A stretch of 64,000 nt of DNA from Polyangiaceae bacterium (lineage in GTDB: Bacteria; Myxococcota_A; Polyangia; Polyangiales; Polyangiaceae), in assembly GCA_009780955.1 (NCBI GenBank), contig WQZB01000015.1:1-64000 (forward strand), read 5' to 3'. Below the pieces are notes generated by a model that was not told where the DNA came from, searched no databases, and worked only from the letters and a program-made list of their open reading frames with translations. Positions 3,843 to 62,427 of the stretch are shown here, piece by piece. Both the position numbers and the translations under genes were made by a program. Position 1 is the stretch's first letter. Each line of letters begins with the position of its first letter.

Positions 3843-3881
3843 TTAGCACTACTGCCGGGAATTCCCAGGCAGTAGTGCTAA
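3843..3881. terminator. strong stem-loop at the 3' end of the ketosynthase operon
   Basis: A 14-bp perfect stem (TTAGCACTACTGCC at 3843-3856, its complement at 3868-3881) encloses a loop that is itself palindromic (GGGAATTCCC). The stem includes the TAG of the ketosynthase gene. No clear T-tract follows on the minus strand, so it may act as an mRNA 3'-end stabiliser or a Rho-assisted terminator. Confidence 0.5.
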
Positions 3882-5911
3882 CGAACTCGCGGGAGCGACA
3901 AGAACCGTGCATAGGCGCGGATCCCCCACGGCGTTACAACCGACAGCTCCAAGGGCCCACGAGCCGCGACATCGGCTGCACGCCGCGCTTCATTCTGCGC
4001 TTCATGGTGCCAAGGCACCCGGGCGAGAGGCAACAGCGCGCGGTGCGCGTCCATCGCGGAGGGAGCAGGGAGCGGGCCCGTTCGGTCGCTTTTTTCGAGG
4101 CGAACAGAGCACTCGACGAGTTCGCCAGCAAGCGGGGTTGCGGCAACCATGAGCGCGACGGCGCCGGGTACCGTGTCAGGGGCTACATGGCGCGATAAGT
4201 CACCTGCTTCGTCTGCCGCAACCACGATGATTCGATCGGCCGTGCCCGTGCGCACGAGATCAGCGGCAACGCTAAGCGCTTCGATACCGCCGTGCGGACC
4301 ACCACCAACAGCAAAAGCAGGTCCATTGAGCCCGAACGCCACCGCGCACTCGCCAGCGGCAGCGTTCGGTGTCGTGTACGGGAAGCGTCGAGGCTCACCG
4401 CGATGCGCACCGGCCGAGCGAATGCGCTCCAGGTATTTTGCGTTCGTGTCGAACGTGGCAAGGCCGTGACCAACGATGATCCCAGCCCCTCGAATGCGCG
4501 GTTGCTCTCGCGCCGAAAGCGCCTCGTCGAGCAACGCTACGGCCGCCATGGTGAGACGAACGAGATTGTCGGAGCGCAGAATGCGATCCTCGGCGTAGCC
4601 CGTGCGAGCCGCGAGAACAGACGGGCTAACGAGATCGCCGCGAGCGCCATCGCCCGAAATGGCAACCGCACGCGAAACGTAGACCGGCCGATCGCGACGC
4701 TCCAGGCCGGTGCATAGGCTTTTGCCGACTGCATTCTTCGCAAGGACGAGCGCAGCGTTCGCGCCACCAAAGGCTGCAGACAGCTTGAGCGTGATCGCGG
4801 CCGACGAGGCTTCGGCGACATCGAGCACGCGAACGCCATCCATCACCGTGCCTTCACCCGCGGATGCGGGTGCCAAGCCTGTGCGCATCGCAAAAAGCGC
4901 GGACAGCGATTCGAGCGCACCGGCAGCTCCAAGTGTGTGACCAACCGATCCTTTGAGCGCGTGCACGGCCACGCGCGATCGATGCTCGCCAAGCACGGTG
5001 GCAAGCGCGCGCGCTTCGGAGGCGTCGTTGAACTCCGTCGCTGTCCCGTGCGCACTCACGAGGTCGACATCGGCTGCCACGACACCGCAAGAGCCAAGCG
5101 CTTGGGCTGCTGCGCGTGCAAGCCCGCCACCCGTTCGATCGGGCGCAGTCAGGTGTATCGCGTCGCACGATGCACCAAAGCCCGTCACCCATCCATACGT
5201 GCGCAGGTGTCGGTCGGCCGCGCAATTGGCAGAAGCGAGAGCCATCACTGCCGCGCCTTCACCAAGCACCAGGCCATCGCGGCCGACACGAAATGGATCG
5301 GGCTTGCCGTCGGCCGACGTTGCGCGCAGCACTTCGAAACCGGAAGCAACGAAAACGCTCACCGCATCGAAGCCGCCCGCAAGCACCACATCGCATGCGC
5401 CGGTTTCAAGCCACGCGTGGCCAAGCCCCACCGCGAGTGTACTCGATGCGCATGCGCCGAGAACGAGCGCAAATCGTGCGAACGAGCACGGGCGATGAGT
5501 AGCGAGCACGGGCCCGAGGTAGCTGCCTTCGATCCAACCGCTTGGCGGCGGATCCGCAGTACTTGCAAAAGTCTCCTCGAAACGGCGCATTCCTCCGCTC
5601 GAAGTGCCGAGCACGAGACCCATGCGCACCTGGCTAAGGTCCGGCATGATCTCGCCGAGATCACGGACGCATGCATCGAGCGCACGCTCCAGCAGCACCG
5701 TGGCCCGATCAGGCGCTGCAGGTAGTAGGGGCGTATGGCCATACGCCCCTACGCGTGCGCAAAACGGACGCGCAAGCTTCGCTTCCAAAAGCTCCGCGTC
5801 GCGCGCGATCGCGAGCGGCGCTCGATGTCCTTCGGGCACGCAACCAAGGGCCTCTTGCCCCTCGCCAAGTGCCGACACAGCTCCAAATGCCACCACCGCA
5901 CTCGCTGTCAT
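3878..5911 (-). CDS. beta-ketoacyl synthase with degenerate second ketosynthase half and inserted palindrome peptide
   Basis: A 677-residue protein. Residues 1 to about 400 form a complete ketosynthase with the Cys-His-His triad: C154 (GACASSTLA), H288 (SAHGTATEF) and H325 (KGSVGHTLG). Residues about 415-677 look like an N-terminal ketosynthase half in which the active-site Cys position reads GGGPHGG, so it cannot condense. A chain-length-factor-like or structural role is an inference. Residues 54-62 (VGAYGHTPL) are encoded exactly by an A-type palindrome at 5725-5752, in a loop before the conserved helix. The start ATG overlaps the lipoprotein TGA (ATGA), indicating translational coupling. 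With the ACP and second KS it resembles the KS set of aryl-polyene-type lipid clusters. Confidence 0.85.
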   Translation of the reverse strand: MTASAVVAFGAVSALGEGQEALGCVPEGHRAPLAIARDAELLEAKLARPFCARVGAYGHTPLLPAAPDRATVLLERALDACVRDLGEIMPDLSQVRMGLVLGTSSGGMRRFEETFASTADPPPSGWIEGSYLGPVLATHRPCSFARFALVLGACASSTLAVGLGHAWLETGACDVVLAGGFDAVSVFVASGFEVLRATSADGKPDPFRVGRDGLVLGEGAAVMALASANCAADRHLRTYGWVTGFGASCDAIHLTAPDRTGGGLARAAAQALGSCGVVAADVDLVSAHGTATEFNDASEARALATVLGEHRSRVAVHALKGSVGHTLGAAGALESLSALFAMRTGLAPASAGEGTVMDGVRVLDVAEASSAAITLKLSAAFGGANAALVLAKNAVGKSLCTGLERRDRPVYVSRAVAISGDGARGDLVSPSVLAARTGYAEDRILRSDNLVRLTMAAVALLDEALSAREQPRIRGAGIIVGHGLATFDTNAKYLERIRSAGAHRGEPRRFPYTTPNAAAGECAVAFGLNGPAFAVGGGPHGGIEALSVAADLVRTGTADRIIVVAADEAGDLSRHVAPDTVPGAVALMVAATPLAGELVECSVRLEKSDRTGPLPAPSAMDAHRALLPLARVPWHHEAQNEARRAADVAARGPLELSVVTPWGIRAYARFLSLPRVR
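5725..5752. repeat. A-type palindromic module inside the ketosynthase ORF
   Basis: A perfect 28-bp palindrome: arm GTAGGGGCG, core TATGGCCATA, arm CGCCCCTAC. It is read in frame as VGAYGHTPL by the ketosynthase gene. Identical copies lie at 12642, 33787, 57980 and 62400. Confidence 0.95.
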
Positions 5912-12641: not shown

Positions 12642-12779
12642 GTAGGGGCGTATGGCCATACGCCCCTACGCACAATTCGCGTTTGGCGCGTTTTGTTGGT
12701 TGTAGGGGCGCGATTCATCGCGCCCCCGGATCGGCCAATGGTATGTGCCTCGGTGGGGCGCCATGAATGGCGCCCCTAC
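12642..12779. repeat. composite palindromic element, order A-B-C
   Basis: Three hairpin modules. A (12642-12669) has core TATGGCCATA. B (12702-12727) has core CGATTCATCG and lost the final TAC. C (12752-12779) has core CCATGAATGG and a slightly altered left arm. A and B are separated by 32 nt containing GCGTTTTGTTGGTT, the complement of the conserved spacer seen elsewhere. The element lies between the DUF507 and yicC genes, ending 14 bp before the yicC ATG, so it could sit in the 5' UTR of yicC. Confidence 0.93.
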
Positions 12780-14344: not shown

Positions 14345-14482
14345 GGGCACGATTCATCCGGGCGCCATGAATGGGCGGCCCTACGGATCGGCATTTGTTT
14401 GGCGGTTGCAGTAGGGGCGCATGGCCATACGCCCCTACGAATCCGTTTTGTCGGATGTAGGGGCGCGATTCATCGCGCCCCC
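14341..14482. repeat. composite palindromic element between convergent gmk and lspA
   Basis: It has three parts. First, 14341-14384, a hybrid hairpin whose left half is B-like (CGATTCATC) and right half C-like (GCCATGAATGG). Second, an A-type module at 14411-14438 with one change in the core. Third, a B module at 14457-14482. The spacer 14385-14410 is the reverse complement of the ~25-nt spacer type, and 14439-14456 is the short type. Both flanking genes end inside it. Confidence 0.92.
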
Positions 14483-15202
14483 AGGATCGTCTGCGTGCGC
14501 GGCGCTTTTGCCGCGATGCGGTGTCAGCATATCGATGGCCATAAGCCCAACGCCCACGCAAATCGCAACGTCGGCGACGTTGAACGTGGGCCAGTGGTCG
14601 GTTGGAATATGACCGGGCGAGTACTTGGCATAAAGCTCGTTCAGTTTCAAAATCCACGCGGCGCGATAGTCGATGAAGTCGATGACGTATCCATAGCGGA
14701 TGCGGTCGAACACGTTGCCAAGCGCGCCGCCGAGCACGAGCGGCAAGCCCCACTTGAGCGCCCGCTGCTCAGGCCGAAGCCGCCTGTAGAGTGTGACGAT
14801 GAACGCGATGGCTGCAACCGAAACAAGAAGAAAAAACGGTCGGCGGACGTTTTCGCTTTCACCCTGAAGAAGACCCCAGGCTCCTCCTTTGTTCTTTGCC
14901 AGAACGAACATGAGATGTTCGTCGAAAACGTTTACGTAGCTTGGATAGCTTTCGAACCGCTTTTCGGCCCAGAGCTTCGTCACAATGTCGGCGACGAAGG
15001 ACAAGGTGGCCACCACGACCAAAAAAGTCGTTGAAGGACGCTCCGCCAGAATAGTCTCGGGAATTCCGCGCGACGTTCCCGTCGGGCGTGCGAGCCGCGG
15101 GGCTTCAGGGACAAGAGGCGGCGCTGTCGGTGGCGGGACCTCAGGTGACGGCACCTTCGGGACCTCAGTGGCTTCGGGAGCATCAGTAGGGATTTCGGAC
15201 AT
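14435..15202 (-). CDS. lspA: prolipoprotein signal peptidase (signal peptidase II)
   Basis: 255 residues from the ATG at 15202 (a GTG at 15229 is also in frame). It is an inner-membrane aspartyl peptidase that cleaves lipoprotein signal peptides. Four membrane segments follow a Pro-rich N-terminal tail of about 55 residues. Motifs: NKGGAWGLL, GGALGNVFDRIRYGYVIDFI (catalytic Asp about 166) and PTFNVADVAI (Asp about 211). The tail and a soluble loop make it longer than the usual ~165 residues. The last 15 residues (GGAMNRAPTSDKTDS) are translated B-type palindrome plus spacer, and the TAG stop lies in the A-type module, so the repeat has replaced the native C-terminus. The many lipoproteins in the window are its likely clients. 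Confidence 0.95.
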   Translation of the reverse strand: MSEIPTDAPEATEVPKVPSPEVPPPTAPPLVPEAPRLARPTGTSRGIPETILAERPSTTFLVVVATLSFVADIVTKLWAEKRFESYPSYVNVFDEHLMFVLAKNKGGAWGLLQGESENVRRPFFLLVSVAAIAFIVTLYRRLRPEQRALKWGLPLVLGGALGNVFDRIRYGYVIDFIDYRAAWILKLNELYAKYSPGHIPTDHWPTFNVADVAICVGVGLMAIDMLTPHRGKSAAHADDPGGAMNRAPTSDKTDS

Positions 15203-15393
15203 CGGCACAGCGCGTATGTTCAGCCTCACGCTTGGCGTTGGTATTCTCGATTCAGCGCCGGGACCTTACTCAATTGGGCATACCCTGTCATTTGATTCGC
15301 GGGCTGCGATCACCTTCGTTTCTTGCCCACGGCTTGGAGACCTGCTTGGATGTTCAGGCCTAGCCAGGATAACTCGTGGGAAGGGAATTGGAG

Positions 15394-29700: not shown

Positions 29701-30085
29701 GAAATCTCCATGAGAGTAAGAGCGCGCGGTCACCCGCCCCCGGGGGAGGCCGCATTGAGGACCTCCTCGGACCGAACGGCGCGTTGTCTAGCACGGTTCT
29801 GCTCCGAGGCAATTGATGAGACGCGTGAGGCGTCCAATTTATTCTGTGCTTTGCAGAACGAAACGCTTTGGCCACCTACGCGCTCAACAGCAACAGAAAA
29901 TTGCACCCACGCTAGCGACGTAAGGCAGGCACAGGGGTCTGCCCCTACGTCCAAATACGAAAAATCGTAGGGGCGTATGGCCGTACGCGCCTACGCGCAA
30001 CCGCCAACAGAACATATTCGTAGGGGCGGCCCCCCGTGGCCGCCCTAACTGGGGCTTTGTGAATTCGCCGTCGCGCCCTAATTCC
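29701..30085. other. intergenic gap (385 bp) with palindromic modules
   Basis: No gene is supported here. The right half holds the repeat element at 29924-30049. The left half (29701-29900) is the likely promoter region of the KGG gene; on the minus strand TTGCCT followed 16 nt later by TAGACA is a possible but weak sigma-70-like pair. Confidence 0.6.
29924..30049. repeat. composite palindromic element with divergent cores
   Basis: Modules are 29924-29948 (GGCAGGCACAGGGGTCTGCC then CCTAC), 29967-29994 (A-type with two changes) and 30020-30049 (GTAGGGGCGGCC, then CCCGTGGCCGCC and a final CTAAC). The spacers fit the two spacer classes: 18 nt GTCCAAATACGAAAAATC, and 25 nt beginning GCGCAACCGCC and ending AACATATTC. 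The cores here are new variants. Confidence 0.85.
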
Positions 30086-31355: not shown

Positions 31356-32908
31356 AAACCTTGCCCGTGCACCTCGACAATCCACTGCGAAAGGGACTCA
31401 TCGAAGACCGCACAGGCGATGCGTGCGCGGTCGTCATTTTTGGTGCATCGGGGGATCTCACGCGCCGCAAATTGGTACCTGCACTCTACAACCTTGCGGT
31501 GAGCCGATTTCTGCCGAGCGGCTTTGCCATCGTGGGCGTTGCGCGACGCGAGAAATCCGACGACAGCTTCCGCGCCGAAATGAAAGAGGCAGTATCGGCC
31601 TTTTCACGGCGCCAGCCCATTGACCCTGGCGTGTGGTCGGACTTCGAGCGCGGCATCGGTTACGTTGCCGGAACCTTCGAGTCGCCCGAAACGTACGAAA
31701 AGCTCCGCCAGCACCTCGATCGAATCGACGCCGAGCGAGGCACTCGAAAGAGCCGTCTTTTCTATCTCGCGGTGTCGCCAAATGACTTCGGCGTCATCAT
31801 GCAGCGCCTCAATGCAGCCGGTCTCGTTTCGCCTGCCGTGACAACGCCAGGCGGGCCCTTTGCGCGCGTGATTATCGAAAAACCCTTTGGTCAAGATCTC
31901 GCAAGCGCACGCGCACTCAACATGGCCGTGGCCGAGACCTTCCAGGAGAAAGATGTTTTTCGCATCGACCATTACCTTGGCAAAGAAACGGTGCAAAACT
32001 TGCTCGTTTTTCGTTTCGCCAACAGCCTGTTCGAGCCGCTCTGGAACCGCGAACATATCGATCACGTCCAGATTACCGTTGCCGAGGAAATCGGCGTGGA
32101 AGGCCGCGGCAAGTTCTACGAGCAAGTTGGAGTGACGCGCGACATCGTCCAAAACCATCTCATGCAGCTTCTTTGCCTGACGGCCATGGAGCCGCCGATT
32201 TCGCTCCATGCCGATGCCGTGCGCGACGAGAAGGTCAAGGTGCTGCGCTCGCTTCGCCCAATGGAACCGCACAGTGTGCAACAGAACGTAATTCGCGGAC
32301 AGTATGCGCGCGGATACGTCAAAGGCGAAGAAGCCCTTGGTTATCGGGACGAGCCGAACGTCGAGAACGACTCGCGCGTCGAAACTTTCGTGGCCATGCG
32401 TGTTTTCGTCGACAACTGGCGCTGGGGAGGCGTGCCTTTCTTCGTGCGCGCGGGCAAGCGCCTCGCGCGGCGCGTGACAGAAATCGCGATCCAGTTCAAG
32501 CAAGTGCCCCACGGGCTGTTCCATTCGCCCGACGGCGGCATCGCCCCCAACGTGCTGTCGATGCGCATCCAACCCGACGAAAGCATCGCGCTGCGCTTCA
32601 CGACGAAAGAGCCGGGGCAGCACACGATCCTCCGCAACATGGCGATGGACTTCCACTACGGAGCGGCATTCGGCTCGAACACGCCCGAAGCCTACGAGCG
32701 CCTTTTGCTCGATGCCATGCGCGGAGACGCCACGCTTTTCACGCGTCACGACGAGGTCGAAGAGCAATGGGCCTTTGTCGACCAGGTGTTCGATGCATGG
32801 CGCAAAGAAGCCAGCATCCCCCCGCCCTTTTACCCTGCCGGAAGCTGGGGTCCCGAGCAAGCCGACGACCTCATTGCACATAGCGGGCGCCGGTGGAGAA
32901 AGCCATGA
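31352..32908 (+). CDS. zwf: glucose-6-phosphate 1-dehydrogenase
   Basis: 518 residues from the ATG at 31352, overlapping the gnd stop. Its length is normal. It oxidises glucose-6-phosphate to 6-phosphogluconolactone. Nucleotide site FGASGDLTRRKL (about 30-41), active-site 'RIDHYLGKETVQN' with catalytic His, and 'VPFFVRAGKRL' for substrate. The frame is open far upstream inside gnd, but that part is shadow sequence. It is followed by opcA at an ATGA overlap, consistent with activation by its assembly factor. Together with pgl and gnd it makes the complete oxidative branch. Confidence 0.97.
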   Translation: MKTLPVHLDNPLRKGLIEDRTGDACAVVIFGASGDLTRRKLVPALYNLAVSRFLPSGFAIVGVARREKSDDSFRAEMKEAVSAFSRRQPIDPGVWSDFERGIGYVAGTFESPETYEKLRQHLDRIDAERGTRKSRLFYLAVSPNDFGVIMQRLNAAGLVSPAVTTPGGPFARVIIEKPFGQDLASARALNMAVAETFQEKDVFRIDHYLGKETVQNLLVFRFANSLFEPLWNREHIDHVQITVAEEIGVEGRGKFYEQVGVTRDIVQNHLMQLLCLTAMEPPISLHADAVRDEKVKVLRSLRPMEPHSVQQNVIRGQYARGYVKGEEALGYRDEPNVENDSRVETFVAMRVFVDNWRWGGVPFFVRAGKRLARRVTEIAIQFKQVPHGLFHSPDGGIAPNVLSMRIQPDESIALRFTTKEPGQHTILRNMAMDFHYGAAFGSNTPEAYERLLLDAMRGDATLFTRHDEVEEQWAFVDQVFDAWRKEASIPPPFYPAGSWGPEQADDLIAHSGRRWRKP

Positions 32909-34170
32909 CCACCTCGAAAGAGACGTCCGGCGGGGAAAAGCCCCAAGACCTCATCGCGCGACTCGAACGAGAGCTCACCGATCTCTGGAAGCCGCCTACG
33001 AATCCGACCGAATTGCCCATGTCGCGCGTCTGCATGATGAACCTCGAAGTCATCGCAGAGTCTGCCGATGTACTCGACCATTACATGTCCGTGGTGGACG
33101 CAGTCACAGCCGCCATTCCCTCGCGGGCGATCGTCGCATCTGTCGAACCGAACGCGCCGGACGATCCTGACAATGAGCTTGAAGGATCGGCCACGGCGAT
33201 CTGCTCAGTCGAGGGCCAAAGAAAGATTTGCGGCGAGCGCATCACGCTTTCGGCAAAAGGCCCGGGGTGCGCTCGACTGGCAAGCGCCATTCTCTCGCTA
33301 CGCATTGCGGAGATCCCAACGGTGCTCGTGTGGCTCGGGCACGTGCACCTGGGCAATCCAATCTTCGAGGATCTCGCACAAAGCGCTGACCGCATCATCA
33401 TCGACAGCGAATTCACCTCGCTTGCCTCGCTCGTGCATCTTGCATCTTGGGCGCGCAAACGCCGCGAACGCGGCGAACGAGATGCGCGTGGGCCCAACGT
33501 GGCCGATCTTGCGTGGACACGACTTGCGCCCTGGCAAGAATTTCTCGCGCGATTCTTCGACAATGGCGCGCATGACGCGCATGCGGGCCTCGCGATGAAG
33601 ATTACAAAGCTCGAACTCGTTCAGGCCTCGGAACCTGGAGAGGACCTCGGCCCCGAACCTGCGCTACTTCTTGGATGGCTCGCAACGCGCCTCGGTTGGA
33701 AAATCTCGCCGCCCGTAGGGGCGCCATTCATGGCGCCCGACCAGGGCGCGATGAATCGCGCCCCTACAATCAACCAAACGCAATTCGTAGGGGCGTATGG
33801 CCATACGCCCCTACTCGAGCGCCCCGACGGCGTGCCCGTTGTACTCGCTTTGCGTTCGGTGGCGCGCCCTTCGGGCGTTGCCCCCAAGGCCCTTGCTGCC
33901 CTAGCGATCGAAGCGCAAAGCGACAATCAAAAAGCTAGCTACCGAATCGTGCGCGAGCTTGCGAGCGGAATGGAAGGCAACACGCCCGACAACGACATGG
34001 TTTCTTGGCGGAAAGAGATCACGGGCGCTGCGCCTGTCGAGCAGCGCTTTCGCCTTGGCTCGAACAAGGCAGCCAAGTGGCTCGAGCGAACGCTGCATCG
34101 AAGGTCGCACGATCCAGCGTTTGACGAGTCCGTCGAATTTGCTGAGCACCTAATAGGGATTTCGCCATGA
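32905..34170 (+). CDS. opcA: OpcA, glucose-6-phosphate dehydrogenase assembly/activator protein, with in-frame palindrome insertion
   Basis: 421 residues from the ATG at 32905 (ATGA overlap with zwf). The OpcA family allosterically activates G6PDH in cyanobacteria and actinobacteria (established). The two family blocks are visible: an N-terminal part (MSRVCMMNLEVIAES..., 'VLVWLGHVHLGNPIFEDLAQSADRIIIDS') and a C-terminal part ('VVLALRSVA', 'ASYRIVRELASGMEGN'). Residues 271-303 (VGAPFMAPDQGAMNRAPTI, then NQTQFVGAYGHTPL) are exactly a fused C/B plus A palindromic element (33715-33814) read through in frame. The stretch is not expected in homologues and probably forms an exposed loop. The gene otherwise looks intact, with no stop or frameshift. 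Confidence 0.9.
   Translation: MTTSKETSGGEKPQDLIARLERELTDLWKPPTNPTELPMSRVCMMNLEVIAESADVLDHYMSVVDAVTAAIPSRAIVASVEPNAPDDPDNELEGSATAICSVEGQRKICGERITLSAKGPGCARLASAILSLRIAEIPTVLVWLGHVHLGNPIFEDLAQSADRIIIDSEFTSLASLVHLASWARKRRERGERDARGPNVADLAWTRLAPWQEFLARFFDNGAHDAHAGLAMKITKLELVQASEPGEDLGPEPALLLGWLATRLGWKISPPVGAPFMAPDQGAMNRAPTINQTQFVGAYGHTPLLERPDGVPVVLALRSVARPSGVAPKALAALAIEAQSDNQKASYRIVRELASGMEGNTPDNDMVSWRKEITGAAPVEQRFRLGSNKAAKWLERTLHRRSHDPAFDESVEFAEHLIGISP
33715..33814. repeat. composite palindromic element inside opcA
   Basis: A 100-bp element. The C half-module (33715-33739, core CCATTCATGG) is fused to an inverse B module (33742-33767, core CGATGAATCG). A 19-nt spacer, AATCAACCAAACGCAATTC, leads to a perfect A module (33787-33814). 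It is translated in frame within opcA with no stop codon. Confidence 0.97.
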
Positions 34171-57936: not shown

Positions 57937-58007
57937 GGGCGCGATGAATCGCGCCCCTACATCAAGAAATGCATATCCGTAGGGGCGTATGGCCATACGC
58001 CCCTACA
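57937..58007. repeat. palindromic modules B and A between convergent MBL and SprT-like genes
   Basis: An inverse B module (57937-57961, core CGATGAATCG), an 18-nt spacer, ATCAAGAAATGCATATCC, and a perfect A module (57980-58007). The spacer resembles the one at 33768. Downstream of A the sequence ACGCAACCGCGAACAAAACG continues the longer spacer type. Confidence 0.95.
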
Positions 58008-62399: not shown

Positions 62400-62427
62400 G
62401 TAGGGGCGTATGGCCATACGCCCCTAC
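62400..62427. repeat. single A-type palindromic module between membrane protein and argG
   Basis: A perfect 28-bp palindrome (GTAGGGGCG, TATGGCCATA, CGCCCCTAC) between the convergent membrane-protein and argG genes, 11 bp from the argG stop. Confidence 0.97.

Follow-up and report, generated by a model that had tools for sequence, protein, structure and literature searches.

How a perfect palindrome comes to encode part of an enzyme is the question raised by one ketosynthase (KS) gene in the 64,000-nucleotide stretch of Polyangiaceae DNA analyzed here (the window). The palindrome, GTAGGGGCGTATGGCCATACGCCCCTAC, is 28 bp long and folds into a hairpin with a 12-bp stem and a 4-nt loop (z -5.7). 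Read on the minus strand, it supplies residues 54-62 (V54-L62, VGAYGHTPL) of the KS, as the first-pass annotation of this DNA had claimed and as the sequence and the ORF translation agree. The host is a real ketosynthase: profile searches found PF00109 and PF02801, the motifs GACASST, HGTATE and KGSVGHT are retained, and full-length relatives are present in the same genus. Its nearest ortholog, 72-74% identical, comes from the MAG Polyangiaceae bacterium Emb289P4bin34 (G010). Over the 647 codons outside the insert, the NG86 method gave a dN of 0.19 and a dS of 1.07 for this pair, which indicates that the KS was under purifying selection in the past.

The nine residues lie in a linker between the conserved segments FCAR and DRAT, which is 14 residues long in this KS and varies from 7 to 28 residues in the 19 homologs aligned, so that a repeat can be tolerated there. 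The first-pass annotation had reasoned that an insertion would be contradicted by the same peptide in KS genes devoid of the palindrome, and none of the 19 homologous KS genes has a VGAYGHTPL-type peptide at this site. Together with the 115 copies of the repeat in the genome, this absence makes it well supported that the repeat was inserted. Linker length alone gives no proof of insertion at this site, since the G010 linker, free of the palindrome, reaches 16 residues and exceeds the one found here. The insertion is judged here against orthologs at most ~74% identical, rather than against a strain-level empty site. The features discussed below are collected in Table 1.

Table 1. Position of the repeats and of their host or associated genes (window coordinates, except for the last line).
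Feature	Position	Strand	Remarks
KS gene, host of the repeat	3878..5911	minus	ATG start, 677 aa
Variable linker FCAR-DRAT	5711..5752	minus	KS residues 54-67, holds the repeat; alignment with 19 homologs
A-type palindromic repeat GTAGGGGCGTATGGCCATACGCCCCTAC	5725..5752	none	within the KS gene; VGAYGHTPL from the minus strand
A-type repeat	12642..12669	none	intergenic; B-type units come next, near 12702 and 12756
A-type repeat, one mismatch	14411..14438	none	beside B unit 14457-14480 at an ORF end
Degenerate A-type repeat	29967..29994	none	clustered with other GTAGGGGC units
B'/B pair, canonical GTAG REPs	33715..33767	none	same opcA insert, translated VGAPFMAPDQGAMNRAPT
A-type repeat in opcA	33787..33814	none	translated VGAYGHTPL; opcA ORF 32884-34170, plus strand
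A-type repeat	57979..58006	none	intergenic, beside B unit 57937-57960
A-type repeat	62400..62427	none	intergenic
RAYT-type gene	G000 C60:25451-26011 (L211:3451-4011)		PNHLHG (HUH) and WQRNY kept

The KS palindrome belongs to a large repeat family. Its own genome (G000; 4.2 Mb in 112 contigs, 98.7% complete) contains 115 copies at up to 2 mismatches, whereas the reversed control sequence does not occur, which excludes chance. When the 10-base core was left free and one mismatch allowed, the search gave 155 copies in this genome and, among 57 relatives, copies only in G010 (13, all with the core CAGCATGCTG) and in one other genome (1). At up to one mismatch, the A form occurs 102 times in its own genome and not at all in the other 376 of the 377 Myxococcota genomes searched. 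A census of 1.94 Mb (46% of the genome, partly picked around known copies, so that densities are biased) counted 96 A units, 91 B units (cores CGATTCATCG, CCATTCATGG and their complements) and 40 C units (core CAGCATGCTG). These units stand singly or form arrays together with further GTAGGGGC hairpins, a linker like CAACAAAACGCATATTC connecting them. Folding showed that the B units are canonical GTAG REPs, a hairpin with an unpaired GTAG, and that the A and C units are complete palindromes in which GTAG pairs with CTAC.

Several properties that define GTAG REPs are found in the A copies: they are short (28 bp, within the 20-40 bp of such repeats) palindromes in high copy number genome-wide (115), they are mainly intergenic, and they lack target-site duplications. 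The unpaired terminal GTAG is absent from A and C units and present in the B units of the same arrays; for this reason A is classed only as a REP-like, fully palindromic variant, one that probably works in the same system as the canonical GTAG REPs. In the 1.94-Mb sample, 79 of the 96 A copies fall outside coding segments, as called by a simple codon-usage gene finder, and 17 inside. With a coding share of 87%, this amounts to a strong depletion of A units from coding DNA.

Translated modules are nevertheless carried by at least about 20 genes of this genome: in the sampled 46% alone, 20 ORFs have A, B or C units lying 90 bp or more within a coding segment. Profile searches identified among them TruB, an acyl-CoA synthetase, a BioF-like protein, RibE, a GltD-like oxidoreductase, a LuxE-like protein, a PP2C phosphatase, OpcA, TrpF, TamB, a metallophosphoesterase, an M1 peptidase, a menaquinone/CofH-like fusion and a PD-(D/E)XK protein adjoining a RecB/AddA-like helicase. 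The G010 orthologs of most of the decorated genes compared align on both sides and do not have the insert (TruB, BioF-like, RibE, LuxE-like, OpcA, CofH/MqnC-like, RecB/AddA-like, the PD-(D/E)XK protein, TrpF and TamB). G010 TruB carries a C unit of its own, translated VGAQHAAPL. The first-pass annotation had counted the KS as the second in-frame case, with the same peptide as in OpcA (TIGR00534; PF10128/PF20171 in profile searches); in OpcA the shared VGAYGHTPL is indeed there, not as a lone palindrome but as part of a longer composite insert, VGAPFMAPDQGAMNRAPTINQTQFVGAYGHTPL. A palindrome of the A/C kind has three distinct frames, one of which contains a stop (TAG), and of the two open ones the VGAYGHTPL/VGAQHAAPL frame is that of 22 of the 23 well-placed A/C units (binomial probability 6e-6, only a guide since the units of one composite insert are not independent). 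Both the depletion from coding DNA and this one-frame bias are as expected from purifying selection on insertions.

Two further observations concern the decorated proteins. TruB is decorated independently in both sister genomes, at different sites (G000 L059:5528-6757; G010 C32, L159). A longer repeat that accompanies C units is also translated, as PAPQPPTMKSRQIESG and variants, in TrpF, TamB and a PPIase-like protein and, in G010, in a LuxE-like protein (L138:8202-9026, L140 near 5330, L150 near 12369, and L160 in G010).

How did the repeat enter a coding sequence and keep the frame? The first-pass annotation invoked a frame-neutral insertion of 28 bp, give or take a duplicated base or two. 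That a mobile-type repeat was inserted in frame holds; the clean event is unsupported, since 28 is not a multiple of three and removal of 28 bp shifts the frame. The short direct repeats that the annotation suggested looking for at the ends, as marks of target duplication, are not there: over 96 A and 40 C copies, flanking direct repeats of 2-10 bp did not rise above shuffled flanks. The most telling footprint comes from the LuxE-like gene, whose 10 homologs have a nearly constant length between conserved blocks: the net gain is only 5 residues (15 bp), which means that 28 bp came in, ~13 bp went out and native bases were replaced. In the KS, a linker deprived of 24-30 bp would keep 4-6 residues, fewer than in all 19 homologs. 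The data agree better with an insertion in which some target bases were lost, and after which selection acted on the frame, than with a clean 28-bp insertion; what preserves the frame seems to be selection among imperfect events and not the length of the element. A model in which each insertion adds exactly 24 bp at GTAC and duplicates TA was considered as well; it fits RibE compared with G010 (+8 aa) and not LuxE (+5 aa). Joining the flanks of the repeats gave no clean empty site among the matches listed, only other module mosaics.

A candidate mobiliser is encoded in the genome. A profile search of G000 with Y1_Tnp (PF01797) gave no match, probably because in-frame REPs split the domain. The NCBIfam profile of REP-associated tyrosine transposases (RAYT), NF047646, picked out three loci, all below its curated cut-off, with weak matches (E 6.5e-16 and 2.9e-13; 58 and 50 bits, the cut-off being 80) to a domain split by REPs. 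RAYT-like genes on contigs C60 of G000 and C44 of G010, both genomes with these repeats, have the HUH motif PNHxHG, the conserved tyrosine and flanking repeats. C and A units lie upstream of the C60 gene and B' and B units downstream; B' and B are also found downstream of the C44 gene, so that both genes, as in REPtrons, are flanked by the REPs of their genome. The C60 gene contains a B'-B pair in frame, and the C44 gene, 67% identical, has such a pair at the same internal place. The other two copies in G000 are split into two frames (C56) or contain, in frame, three units of a different GTAGGGGC type (C12). Among relatives, G002 has a RAYT 46% identical to the C60 gene with no internal B'-B pair and none of these repeats, and G005, G008 and G009 gave no RAYT match. 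RAYTs of other Myxococcota families also present a palindrome at the same place (e.g., GTAGGGGCGGGTTTTAAAACCGCCCCTAC in G280), and three others have none.

Where RAYT genes hold GTAG repeats in their own ORF, these sit in the stretch that links the HUH half to the tyrosine half (L211:3451-4011, L133:3205-3734, L212:3107-3946, L214 and L227). A RAYT with its own in-frame REPs could have kept the REP sequence compatible with protein, pre-adapting REPs as harmless linkers that then spread into at least 20 proteins, nearly always in the same frame, a scenario that we consider doubtful.

The reading we favor, with a probability of about 0.83, is that the palindrome is a GTAG REP-like copy, likely mobilised by a RAYT, which landed in a tolerant KS linker and is likely neutral. 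The single-stranded DNA hairpin of the repeat would most likely have been moved by a RAYT-type (HUH/Y1) transposase encoded here, would have landed in the length-variable linker near the KS N terminus, where it probably replaced a few native bases, and may have survived through a preserved frame, the lack of a stop in that frame and a tolerant loop. We consider it most likely that the KS remains functional and that the nine residues have no role. The paired GTAG in A and C units, the weak RAYT matches and the G002 RAYT without repeats are points against this reading.

The clean insertion proposed by the first-pass annotation would correspond to a small inverted-repeat element (MITE) moved by a DDE transposase that leaves a short duplication of the target. 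Such an element would share the high copy number, the near-identical copies and the palindromic ends, but the duplication typical of DDE-type MITEs (1-10 bp) is missing over the 96 A and 40 C copies, 28 bp is below the usual MITE size, no longer element ending in these palindromes was found in the sampled 1.94 Mb, and the LuxE-like gene gained only 15 bp; we regard this origin as very improbable. It is just as hard to believe that the palindrome was selected inside the gene, as an mRNA hairpin or protein-binding site tuning KS expression or as a useful peptide. The strong hairpin and the one-frame bias of translated copies would suit a function, which is difficult to reconcile with the same module occurring in unrelated proteins and mostly between genes, with its strong depletion from coding DNA and with a linker that is variable in relatives.

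Slightly less probable still is a decaying KS gene in which the insertion was not selected against. For its genus the genome is small, at 4.2 Mb against 6.6-11.9 Mb in most relatives, as in genome reduction, but the ORF is full-length with its catalytic motifs, dN/dS against G010 is ~0.17, and the adjoining second KS and carrier-protein-like ORF are both retained.

Rickettsia and a few further bacteria are already known to have proteins decorated by repeats, and the palindrome described here is a variant of this phenomenon. According to the main text of Di Nocera et al. 2013 (PMC3733652), intragenic GTAG REPs exist in Opitutus terrae, Thauera and Stenotrophomonas, some are read in frame, singly or as dimers, into 20-30 aa, and the TruB and RecBCD genes are decorated repeatedly. 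Compared with the repeats described in that text, those studied here are likewise short GTAG-ended palindromes in arrays or dimers, mostly intergenic and sometimes in frame, and they also decorate TruB (in G000 and G010, at different sites) and a RecB/AddA-like gene; in contrast, A and C are complete palindromes with a paired GTAG, and no other of the 377 Myxococcota genomes searched yielded the A family. Neither 'myxo' nor the string GTAGGGGC occurs in the main text of that article, and a literature search for the string GTAGGGGCG returned, among the papers listed, nothing relevant. The same text describes Rickettsia palindromic elements (RPE) as in-frame repeats in many unrelated proteins, TruB included. 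This likeness is one of behaviour only: the tag of RPE-4 and RPE-6 is CGTC and RPE-1 exceeds the present repeats in length, whereas a GTAG tag and RAYT-like genes are found here. REPtron/RAYT (TnpAREP) systems of E. coli, Stenotrophomonas and Marinomonas (PMC2817692, PMC6006769, PMC8266576) have an HUH/Y1 transposase gene with flanking GTAG repeats, which the RAYT-like candidates here resemble; unlike those systems, the present genome has REP units also within the RAYT frame, in the HUH-Tyr linker, and three RAYT loci, one of them broken into two frames. Enterobacterial RU-1/RU-2/RU-3 (PMC2759123) are also small mobile repeats read as protein, with open frames fused into genes, but are MITE-like and longer (103-168 bp).

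With the present case, many REP-decorated proteins, including core enzymes, become known from a lineage of Myxococcota, together with a candidate mobilising transposase, and the notion that the insertion was clean and frame-neutral is corrected. TruB being decorated again and again, both in unrelated bacteria and at different sites of two sister genomes, target tolerance versus target preference becomes testable.

Two minor observations concern repeats at gene ends. A long autonomous element ending in A palindromes had been suspected from repeats of 1.7-2.5 kb and was dismissed, those inspected being paralogous secreted-protein genes with GTAG-type repeats near their 3' ends. In these paralogs (~67-77% identical; L124:11000-15500 on G000 C49, L072/L073 at C2:143600-145500, and L157 on C80) the repeats often stand right at the 3' end. 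At 14411-14480 of the window, an ORF named by eye as lspA-like (14435-15266, minus strand) has a translated B repeat, GGAMNRAPTSDKTDS, at its end, and its TAG stop is supplied by the GTAG of the next A repeat.
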